In this document: positions 431 to 2,284 of the stretch, one piece after another
How the letters are laid out: the number at the start of each line of letters is the position of its first letter
How positions within the stretch are numbered: position 1 is the stretch's first letter
Assembly: GCA_001799975.1 (NCBI GenBank)
Contig: MGUQ01000110.1
Span: forward strand, 1 to 6,425
Reading direction: 5' to 3'
DNA length: 6,425 bases
From: Elusimicrobia bacterium RIFCSPLOWO2_01_FULL_54_10
GTDB taxonomy: Bacteria; Elusimicrobiota; Elusimicrobia; 2-02-FULL-39-32
Notes under the pieces: generated by a model
What the model was told of the DNA's origin: nothing
The model's input: only the letters and a program-made list of their open reading frames with translations
The model's database searches: none
Program-made: the position numbers and the translations under genes

Positions 431-718
431 ATGGCTAAATTAAAGACAGGCCGCCACACGTCGGCCATCAAGCAAAACCGAAAGGCGATGAAGCGCCAGG
501 GAGAAAACCGCAATTCGCTCAGGAAGATCCGCACCCTGGCCAAGCAGTTCGAAGCGGCCGTGACCCAGAAGAAAAAAGCTGAAGCCGGAAAGCTTCTTTC
601 CCAGTGCTTCTCCGCGTGGGATAAAGCCGCCAAAACCGGTCTTATCCACGACAACGCCGCGTCCCGCAAAAAAGCCCGTTTGTCTCACAAGCTGTCTCAA
701 CTCGCCCAAGCCGCGTAA
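431..718 (+). CDS. rpsT: 30S ribosomal protein S20
   Basis: S20 is a primary 16S rRNA-binding protein that stabilises the bottom of the 30S body during early assembly. The 95-residue product starts MAKLKTGRHTSAIKQNRK, is strongly basic, and has the family's alternating Lys/Arg helical pattern. The late motif GLIHDNAASRKKARLSHKL matches the conserved S20 C-terminal helix. E. coli S20 is 87 residues, so the length is normal. The start at 431 is chosen over the in-frame GTG at 422 because MAK is the family N-terminus and 422 lies upstream of the predicted transcription start. No Shine-Dalgarno is visible. The last 22 bp overlap the convergent end of holA. A holA-rpsT neighbourhood is common in bacteria, often with both genes in the same direction; here they converge. 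No terminator hairpin is evident after the stop. Confidence 0.96.
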   Translation: MAKLKTGRHTSAIKQNRKAMKRQGENRNSLRKIRTLAKQFEAAVTQKKKAEAGKLLSQCFSAWDKAAKTGLIHDNAASRKKARLSHKLSQLAQAA

Positions 719-1623
719 GCCCCAACCATCCTCTCCAAAACACCCGATTCTATCCCGTGGCCCGATTTCAGGGCCAGGTCGGAATCTTTGATCTGGCCAA
801 AAAGCTCCAGCTGAACCGCCGCTGAGCGCGGCCGGGCTTGCACCAGCTTCCGCGCGCTCCTGGCCATCATGTTGAGGAGAAAAAACGGCTCTTCGCCCTG
901 CTCCAGACAGCGCTCCATGGCGCGCCCTGCTTTGGGGATGAGGCCCGCTTCAAGATGATTGATGAAATCCCACACCCCTTGATCCGGACGGAAGCTCAAG
1001 GTGCGGCGCACGTCCTGAACCTGGATTTTTGCTTCCTTCCCCGCAAACAGAACAAGCTTTTCAATTTCCCCCTTGAGCTCGAGCAGCCCGTCGCCGCCTT
1101 CGCGGGCCAGCAGCATTGCGGCTTCCCTTTCGATGTCTTTGCCGCTCTCACGGAAGCGCGCGGCGATCCAGTCCGCCCGGCGGAAATCGTCCGACATCTT
1201 CCAGCAATTGACGACCATCGCTCCGGAAGCCGCAAGATCCTTGGGAAACGCCTTTGGCTCCTTATTCCAGACCATCACAAGCGCCGTGGCCGGATTGGGA
1301 GCTTTCAAATAGGAGGCCAGTTCCTCTTGCGCGGACGATGAGATTTTTTCCGCCCGGTGAAAAACAGCCATCCTCATGTCCATCCCCACAGGAAGCGTCT
1401 GGCAGGCGTCCAGAACCCGCGAGATATCGTCTTTGTCGCCGTATAAAATGTCCTGGTTAAAATCGAGCATCGCTTCTCCAAACCTCGCGGAAAAATTCTT
1501 CTTGAACACCGCCAGGCAGGCGGAAATGAGGGCTTCTTCCTCTCCCACCAGCGCAATCACCGGCGGCAATTGTTTGGCGGAGGTCAAGGTTTTTTCAAAC
1601 TGGGAGGAATCGACGGTGCTCAT
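697..1623 (-). CDS. holA: DNA polymerase III delta subunit (clamp loader)
   Basis: HolA is the subunit of the clamp-loader complex that opens the beta sliding clamp. The 308-residue reading (E. coli about 343) starts MSTVDSSQFEKTLTSAKQ. It shows the N-terminal domain opening PPVIALVGEEEALISA (residues 20-35), which stands where ATPases of the complex carry a P-loop but lacks one, as expected for delta. The conserved stretch CQTLPVGMDMRMAVFH (74-89) and the C-terminal collar region with EPFFLLNMMARSARKLVQ also fit. Order after leuS and lptE is the same as in E. coli (leuS-lptE-holA). ATG at 1623 is preferred: it would have formed an ATGA overlap with lptE before the insertion described at 1624-1696. 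An in-frame TTG at 1680 inside that element would add 19 residues (327 aa total) but they would be element-encoded. The ATG is preceded by GGTGGGGGG from the element rather than a standard Shine-Dalgarno. The stop lies inside the rpsT tail. Confidence 0.9.
   Translation of the reverse strand: MSTVDSSQFEKTLTSAKQLPPVIALVGEEEALISACLAVFKKNFSARFGEAMLDFNQDILYGDKDDISRVLDACQTLPVGMDMRMAVFHRAEKISSSAQEELASYLKAPNPATALVMVWNKEPKAFPKDLAASGAMVVNCWKMSDDFRRADWIAARFRESGKDIEREAAMLLAREGGDGLLELKGEIEKLVLFAGKEAKIQVQDVRRTLSFRPDQGVWDFINHLEAGLIPKAGRAMERCLEQGEEPFFLLNMMARSARKLVQARPRSAAVQLELFGQIKDSDLALKSGHGIESGVLERMVGAYAAWAS
1620..1623. repeat. Left copy of putative TCAT target duplication (contains holA start codon)
   Basis: TCAT directly abuts the left inverted end of the element. 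On the minus strand it reads ATGA, the holA start codon plus the next base. It matches 1697-1700. Part of the match is forced, because one side must hold a start codon and the other a stop codon, so the duplication is suggestive and not proof. Confidence 0.6.
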
Positions 1624-1624
1624 C

Positions 1625-1637
1625 CCCCCACCTGCTC
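1625..1637. repeat. Left inverted arm, 13 bp perfect
   Basis: CCCCCACCTGCTC is the exact reverse complement of 1683-1695. Read on the holA mRNA it is GAGCAGGUGGGGG, the purine-rich stretch immediately before the holA start codon. Confidence 0.95.
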
Positions 1638-1652
1638 TTGGCTCACAGCCAA
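1638..1652. other. Internal hairpin 1 of the element (6-bp stem, 3-nt loop)
   Basis: TTGGCT (1638-1643), loop CAC, AGCCAA (1647-1652) is a perfect stem. It begins at the base right after the left outer arm, which places it as one limb of a three-way junction. Confidence 0.85.
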
Positions 1653-1665
1653 TTGAGTCATAAAA

Positions 1666-1682
1666 ATTTGCCTTTTGCAAAT
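1666..1682. other. Internal hairpin 2 of the element (6-bp stem, 5-nt loop)
   Basis: ATTTGC (1666-1671), loop CTTTT, GCAAAT (1677-1682) is a perfect stem. It ends at the base right before the right outer arm, giving the second limb of the junction. Confidence 0.85.
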
Positions 1683-1695
1683 GAGCAGGTGGGGG
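1683..1695. repeat. Right inverted arm, 13 bp perfect
   Basis: GAGCAGGTGGGGG pairs exactly with 1625-1637. On the operon mRNA this arm lies just after the lptE stop and could pair with the sequence next to the holA start codon. Confidence 0.95.
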
Positions 1696-1696
1696 A

Positions 1697-1700
1697 TCAT
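1697..1700. repeat. Right copy of putative TCAT target duplication (contains lptE stop codon)
   Basis: TCAT directly abuts the right inverted end of the element. On the minus strand it reads ATGA, whose TGA is the lptE stop codon. It pairs with the copy at 1620-1623. Collapsing the two copies into one gives CAATGAGC, a 4-bp stop/start overlap. Confidence 0.6.
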
Positions 1701-2284
1701 TGGCCGCTTATTTTCTCCTTGCCGATGGGCCCGCCCTGGGGCACTTTCCTCTCCAGCTCGCCCGTGACGGAGCCGAAACCCTCTATGGTGCGGCGGTAAA
1801 TGTCGCGCGAGAGCTTGTCCCAAATGATTTCCTTGGCTTCTTCTTCCGAAATGCCGCCCGGGCGGGACTCCACAAAAAAGCGGTGGATGCCCTGCAGGTT
1901 GGGCTCCTGCCACAAGATTTTGTTCTGCACCTTGTCCCAGAACTGGATGTCCACCAGCACCCACATCTTCTTTTCCTGCACGACCAGGTTTTCGTCGTAT
2001 GACACGGGCTCGTTGATGAAACGCTTGATGTCGGCAATGATCACGCCGTCAGCGGTGTCTTTGCTCACAAGCGGATATTGCCCGCCGCGGGTGAATTCTT
2101 CCTGGAGCCGGAGGGTGAACTTGTCTTCAAGCCCGAAAAAAGTGGTTTCGTTGCGGATGGGGCGCAGGCCCATCCTCTTGATGTGCTGGGGGACGATTTG
2201 GGCGGAGGGTTCATAGGCGTACGGGCAGCCGGCGAGCGGCAGCACGGAAAAAATCAATAATGCCGTGAGGAGATAATTCTTCAT
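1697..2284 (-). CDS. lptE: LPS-assembly lipoprotein LptE-like
   Basis: LptE is an outer-membrane lipoprotein that plugs the LptD barrel and helps deliver LPS to the cell surface. The 195-residue product has a lipoprotein signal: MKNYLL, a hydrophobic run, then the lipobox LAGC with the lipidated Cys at residue 20. The following ribose-like alternation with [18 protein letters not shown] and [20 protein letters not shown] (about residues 40-80) fits the LptE fold, in which a strand, helix and a D-A-D-type turn precede the beta sheet. Sequence conservation in this family is low, so the call rests heavily on the lipobox and on position between leuS and holA, as in E. coli. Its ATG overlaps the leuS stop as ATGA (2284-2281), and a GGAGG Shine-Dalgarno within leuS (2299-2295) lies 10 nt upstream, which indicates translational coupling. 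Its stop codon sits at the edge of the 73-bp element. Confidence 0.82.

Follow-up and report, generated by a model that had tools for sequence, protein, structure and literature searches.

A dispersed palindromic element in the lptE/holA stop-start overlap of an Elusimicrobia bacterium, with a putative portable start site

Mobile DNA would hardly be expected to settle where the genes of an operon overlap. We examined a long, hairpin-forming inverted repeat that lies between the stop codon of lptE and the start codon of holA in an Elusimicrobia bacterium. The window (the whole stretch of 6,425 nucleotides that was analysed) belongs to the draft genome G000, which comprises 1.89 Mb in 129 contigs, is 79% complete, and shares its genus with the genomes G001 and G002. 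On the minus strand of the window, lptE (LptE, PF04390; 195 aa; 1697..2284) is followed by holA (DNA polymerase III delta, PF06144; 308 aa from the ATG at 1623; 697..1623), both assigned by Pfam. On the plus strand, the inverted repeat is bracketed by TCAT at 1620-1623 and ATCAT at 1696-1700, which places it inside the lptE/holA stop-start overlap. The initial annotation, made from the letters of the window, had described this repeat as a MITE-like element of 73 bp inserted precisely in an ATGA overlap, with a 4-bp target duplication that separated two complete genes, and had pointed to the neighbouring leuS and lptE as a pair that still overlaps. Indeed, lptE ends at 1697 and holA starts with the ATG at 1623, and the leuS/lptE ATGA overlap (2281..2284, minus strand) is intact in the sequence and without an element.

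The coding (minus) strand of the window reads lptE...CAA-TGA-(T CCCCCACCTGCTC ... GAGCAGGTGGGGGG A)-TGA-GC...holA, where the parentheses enclose the inserted element of 74 bp (1623..1696, minus strand, as are all of the following features), running from the T at 1696 to the A at 1623. The left target copy, TGA at 1697..1699, is the stop codon of lptE, and the right copy, TGA at 1620..1622, provides with its TG the second and third bases of the holA start codon. The outer stem is formed by a 5′ arm (TCCCCCACCTGCTC, 1683..1696) and a 3′ arm (GAGCAGGTGGGGGGA, 1623..1637), and it encloses two hairpins in the predicted fold, ATTTGC/GCAAAT at 1666..1682 and TTGGCT/AGCCAA at 1638..1652. Five bases 5′ of the holA ATG, at position -10, lies the sequence AGGTG (1629..1633), a predicted Shine-Dalgarno core. 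The coding-strand RNA of the element is predicted to fold with -44.6 kcal/mol (z -4.9), and none of 200 shuffled sequences folded as well.

We then compared the junction with those of other genomes. After a screen of 41 genomes for leuS, the downstream region was read at 13 loci, and 11 lptE-holA junctions, including that of the window, were compared, with the loci L103 and L106 left out. As a result, both same-genus genomes were found to carry a bare overlap of the lptE stop with the holA start, ATGA in G001 (...CTGAAATGAGTTCG) and GTGA in G002 (...GGCCAGTGAGCTCC), and none of the eight junctions compared from more distant relatives contained such a hairpin spacer. The 77 extra bases of the window are thus most likely an insertion, and the window most likely represents the derived, filled state. 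The initial annotation had expected an empty ATGA junction in relatives and further copies elsewhere in the host genome if its reading was right; the two empty sites bore out the former, and 15 copies recognised in the draft G000, that of the window included, the latter. Judged from these sequence comparisons, the insertion at 1623..1696 is real and a member of a dispersed repeat family.

A DNA search of G000 revealed relatives with the same outer stem and TCAT flanks and with different inner hairpins, and a gapped stem pattern gave nine forward matches in this genome, compared with one match of its reversed control, which it did not outperform in many of the other genomes. A strict stem pattern was found in 11 of the 340 genomes of the phylum (reversed control, 0 among the genomes listed), and a covariance model built from 22 copies detected the element at E <= 0.001 in 23 of the 340, of which three reached no better than about 5e-4; since scoring was limited to the top 13 candidates of each genome, the copy numbers are lower bounds. 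The model found no copy in the same-genus G001. In a named genome collection, the exact stem pattern matched 52 stretches, 29 in Elusimicrobia/Elusimicrobiota, 21 in Omnitrophota/Omnitrophica, and the remaining two in a Planctomycetales MAG and in Persicitalea, the last of which looks like a chance match (L245); viral contigs gave no match. The collection thus assembled holds 138 distinct copies, from which the Persicitalea match, the second register of locus L085, two repeats among 60 later copies, copies with fewer than 16 bases of flank, and a loose-pattern match without the outer stem on contig C77 of G000 were excluded. A literature search found no description of this element family.

The palindrome of the element has the form Y-CCCACCACCTGC...GCAGGTGGTGGG-R and encloses hairpins, with ends that read CCCCACCACC and an arm-to-arm length of 36-125 bp in the copies counted. 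Among 22 aligned copies, 98.5% of 330 stem cells in the terminal inverted repeats were paired, the stem core CACCTGC/GCAGGTG was invariant, and five other pairs varied on both sides. The end base and its partner changed jointly (C:G in 11 and U:A in 10 of the 22), and the end bases inside the flanking repeat were complementary in 78 of the 82 first-set copies and in 57 of the 58 later copies. The inner part differs among copies yet still forms hairpins: it folded better than shuffled sequences (mean z -2.35 over 79 copies, 66 of which were below -1). Its predicted hairpin loops numbered two in 36 copies, one in 24, and three in 17, and three inner hairpins were also apparent in several Omnitrophota copies. 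The element carries no protein of its own, and it has the inverted repeats, the target duplication, and the many short copies of a MITE. The strong fold and the two-sided changes in outer-stem pairs, as well as the intergenic positions, would also suit a regulatory RNA or attenuator of operons that is immobile and inherited at fixed places. However, the same-genus empty sites count against this as the whole story, the target duplications, in-gene copies (described below), and patchy spread oppose it further, and an Rfam scan of 1500-1800 returned two irrelevant weak matches only, both below threshold, so that we regard it as very improbable.

Exact 3-bp repeats without a register shift flanked 67 of the 82 first-set copies, which had been found by the stem alone, and 43 of these 67 repeats were TGA/TCA. 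The later copies, found with the RNA model, had exact 3-bp repeats in 47 of 58 cases, TGA/TCA in 39 of the 47; this model was built with the end pair and the TGA columns on either side, so that the later set is biased towards such flanks, whereas no flanks entered the search for the first set. When a 1-base shift was allowed, which increases chance matches, 122 of all 138 copies had a 3-bp repeat and 16 had none, and the 122 targets were TGA/TCA (87), TAA/TTA (16), TGG/CCA (10), and others (9), with TCG among the targets. At L197 and L199 in Omnitrophota, the insertions lay in TATAAT with TAA duplicated.

In the window sequence alone, 3-bp and 4-bp duplications are indistinguishable. A 4-bp duplication, as initially proposed, would predict that nearly all of the 87 TGA-type copies agree at the fourth base, before TGA; however, this base was equal on both sides in 44 of the 87, compared with 33 expected from base composition (p 0.003). 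The agreement above chance indicates some dependence of the end base on the target, which may reflect a tendency to keep the start codon. Furthermore, 25 of the 87 copies have ATGA on the left and GTGA on the right, and in those copies it is thus the element that brings the first letter of the start. The 3-bp repeat over the family, together with the complementary end bases, indicate that the duplication is TGA and that the A of the holA ATG is likely the last base of the element; over the family, the fourth base is part of the element's own palindrome. The insertion and its flanking repeats, as annotated initially, are retained, while the duplication shortens from 4 to 3 bp and the element lengthens slightly from 73 to 74 bp.

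These targets recall the IS1031 group, for which 3-bp TNA repeats are typical, TGA being the repeat of the case described in the part of PMC12016507 drawn on here. An IS5/IS1031-type insertion sequence, duplicating TNA, might thus have the element as its non-autonomous partner, and 103 of the 122 repeats, being TGA/TCA or TAA/TTA, are indeed of this form. Nevertheless, DDE_Tnp_1 (PF01609) occurred in only three of 11 carriers, TGG, TCG, and other targets are used as well, and no long element with these ends was recognised, and we consider this origin unlikely. An exact-end search in five genomes gave 45 places, of which 15 loci were inspected: two (L189 and L192) held the same element with both arms exact, 12, including the bare stems L170 and L196, had an inverted partner arm that deviated at one or two positions, and one (L179) had no good partner arm, the nearest showing 4 mismatches. 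Three further places in G146 comprised two short copies and one with a partner at 3 mismatches, and distant inverted pairs in the loci were mostly neighbouring copies or lone weak arms. A longer element with the same ends was recognised neither by the exact end in the five genomes nor among the loci examined, most genomes being drafts. At L390:440 (G332 C1), a lone exact arm lay 1.3 kb from a complete copy, its best partner having 3 mismatches at 161 bp; for this arm and the complete copy, no matching target repeat was apparent by eye.

A REP/REPIN-type repeat mobilised by a RAYT (Y1 transposase) would likewise account for the hairpin shape, and the RAYT domain PF01797 was indeed enriched in the carriers, with 10 of 11 strict-pattern carriers vs 165 of 329 other genomes (Fisher p 0.007) and 19 of 23 RNA-model carriers vs 156 of 317 others (p 0.0015). 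However, PF01797 was absent from G000 (79% complete) and from the strong carrier G009 (82%), and an arm with at most one mismatch was found nearby at none of 12 RAYT loci, 11 of which came from strict-pattern carriers holding 44 PF01797 matches; four of the 12 showed a lone arm match with two mismatches. Since the GTAG/CGTC tag is also absent from the flanks and the target is duplicated, we hold this reading to be quite improbable, and a RAYT was set aside as the motor, given a genome-level association and no physical link to the element at the loci examined.

All 15 copies recognised in G000 run from a TGA at the left end to an RTGA (ATGA or GTGA) at the right, and a frame of at least 80 codons opens at the RTG in 14 of them, the exception on C108 meeting a second, N-masked copy. 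Upstream, four copies lack a frame of at least 80 codons ending at the TGA (C127, 5 codons; C33, 8; C112, 71, without a Pfam match; C123:5301, 57), and they are thus start-codon sites rather than proven overlaps. The gene pairs around the G000 copies that are supported by Pfam, from which the names are inferred, include pheS/pheT, gcvPA/gcvPB, purL-like/purQ-like, and lptE/holA, as well as nucleotidyl transferase/GHMP kinase, methyltransferase/glycosyltransferase, and HlyD/HAMP, with the HAMP match below the cut-off. Over the family, TGA-type copies with 300 bp of flank opened a frame of at least 80 codons at the RTG in 59 of 83 cases, whereas the one alternative frame gave 13 of 83. These 59 starts were 32 ATG and 27 GTG, and at least seven of the 59 copies lie inside genes, with the same frame running through. 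A frame of at least 80 codons also ended at the left TGA in 31 of the 83 copies. Start-only copies made up 16 of the 122 with a repeat, and 41 of the 122 fitted neither this landing mode nor the one inside genes.

Inside genes, 30 candidates keep an open frame across the site when the element is removed, and 27 of them carry an insert whose length is a multiple of 3, compared with five of 35 stop/start junctions (Fisher p 4e-10). In the remaining three candidates, a long frame begins at the RTG, and these are better read as start-codon sites. TGA/TCA was the commonest target here too (14 of the 27 in-frame candidates listed), and hence target choice does not need translation. By Pfam, in-frame copies lie in aspS-, pheT-, tilS-, glgA-, and dnaX-like genes and in one for a Mur ligase. 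When 20 ORFs with in-frame copies were scanned, 19 had a Pfam match, and in 12 the element was located within a domain or between domains of the same protein; these 20 were preselected for insert lengths that are multiples of 3, whereas the count of 27 of 30 was made without preselection. An aspartase-like protein, compared with PDB 1j3u, contained an exact 21-codon insert with the Trp codon TGG duplicated. The peptide of in-gene copies is often PPPA...AGGG. Ribosome hopping over these copies was dropped as an explanation, because they are in frame and open.

The rebuilt start is regularly spaced from the Shine-Dalgarno-like core. In the 11 of 15 copies that were modelled, AGGTG stood at -10 from the RTG in 10 and at -9 in one, with a spacing of five bases before R-TG, and four in C31. 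Going by the general consensus for 16S RNA rather than the host's own sequence, AGGTG would match its 3′ end. In the folding model, the probability that AGGTG is unpaired was 0.00-0.05 in free RNA and rose to 0.13-0.63 with the 10 bases after the stop covered; with a ribosome on the stop codon, it was still more paired than free in 10 of the 11 copies, and the coupling effect is accordingly predicted to be modest in most copies.

We propose that an enzyme supplied in trans would cut at TGA-like sites, with TGA preferred over TAA/TTA and TGG/CCA, and insert the element there. At an RTGA overlap, the left TGA copy would stay the stop codon of the upstream gene, and the last base of the element, R (A or G), would join the TG of the right-hand copy in a new start codon, usually five bases downstream of AGGTG. 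The stem is predicted to keep AGGTG paired in free mRNA, and a ribosome halted at the TGA at the stem foot, by covering the greater part of the 5′ arm, would assist in opening the AGGTG site; the translation of the second gene would then stay coupled to that of the first. With the empty sites, the 3-bp repeats, the complementary ends, and the dispersed and in-frame copies all seen in the sequences compared, we consider it probable that a member of a family of short palindromes lies in the window, inserted between two copies of TGA in the lptE/holA overlap, and that both genes likely work by means of the element's predicted Shine-Dalgarno core and start base. A broader proposal, that the family is harmless to translation, with the duplicated TGA and the AGGTGGTGGG-R end acting as a portable stop, ribosome site, and start that spreads through the overlaps of essential operons while keeping coupling, and with versions of a length that is a multiple of 3 crossing genes as PPPA...AGGG, stands in our judgement at roughly even chances. 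The family settles precisely in overlaps, including those of operons expected to be essential (pheS/pheT, lptE/holA, gatC), and the downstream genes apparently receive a fresh start. If the coupling holds, the family would show how insertions can separate overlapping genes harmlessly, and would offer a compact natural module for coupled expression.

Alternatively, the family may be an ordinary MITE, its landing in overlaps being what selection left over, and the AGGTG core and the start base being accidents of the end sequence. TGA/TCA is, after all, commonest inside genes too (14/27), CACCTGC is invariant in the 22 aligned copies wherever they are located, 41 of the 122 copies fall in neither mode, and the core CACCTGC/GCAGGTG could be kept by the transposition enzyme rather than by ribosomes. 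On the other hand, such accidents sit poorly with the position of AGGTG, which in all modelled copies is -10 or -9 relative to the new RTG, and with the covariation of the end base and its partner (C:G 11, U:A 10 of 22), and we give this reading a real but minority chance.

The family belongs with the bacterial MITE-like palindromes, among which it stands out by its probable start-rebuilding end. Compared by description with the Rickettsia palindromic elements, which are ~150 bp long and lie in frame inside unrelated genes (PMC10969869, as excerpted), the present elements are likewise short palindromic repeats in frame within unrelated genes (27/30). They differ in their length of 36-125 bp, their occurrence in Elusimicrobia and Omnitrophota instead of Rickettsia, the TGA-type duplication, and the second landing mode at start codons. 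They resemble the GTAG-/CGTC-tagged REPs and REPINs in being dispersed palindromes, unlike which they have no GTAG/CGTC tag, no flanking RAYT at the loci examined, and a duplicated target. GTAG REP ends often give flanking ORFs a TAG stop, and some REPs lie inside ORFs (according to the passages of PMC3733652 used here); in that case the element end gives the stop, whereas the present elements leave the stop to the target and likely contribute the first base of the start. Inverted repeats, the lack of an own protein, and target duplications are shared with the Correia/NEMIS and RUP MITEs, as these are outlined in the excerpt of PMC2229807. The latter have mostly TA ends and are A+T-rich in that outline, whereas the present ends hold a Shine-Dalgarno-like core, and the inner part, unlike theirs, is variable among copies yet hairpin-forming. 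Finally, the predicted pairing and release of AGGTG would fit the RNA unfolding model of translational coupling, in which ribosomes on the first gene open a stem that hides the site of the second (PMC12548453, in the sections consulted); the cases given there are native junctions, whereas here the junction would arrive as a movable piece.

Several copies deviated from the common form or arrangement. The copies L170, L196, and L388 of G146 are minimal, with an outer stem and almost no inner sequence. A changed stem core was observed at L234:950-1006 (ACCTGAC) and L232:4754-4814 (ACCTATT), with flanks of the same kind, and these copies would represent subfamilies that the searches used mostly miss. 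Another subfamily, CCTACC...GGTAGG, occurs at L343-L366 (G140, G138, and G139), mainly in the genus g44, and has mostly 3-bp repeats. In G000, two copies lie ~1.4 kb apart on C123 (5301-5364 and 6784-6845; L379 and L087), one between gcvPA and gcvPB and the other before a gene with a start similar to that of lipoate-protein ligase. At L085 (G000 C108:4900-7400), a tandem follows gatC, in which a full copy precedes a partial copy containing an N stretch, with ATGAACA at the right end of each, and at L148 (G002 C113:1-3000), a gene of ~277 codons is flanked by two copies.
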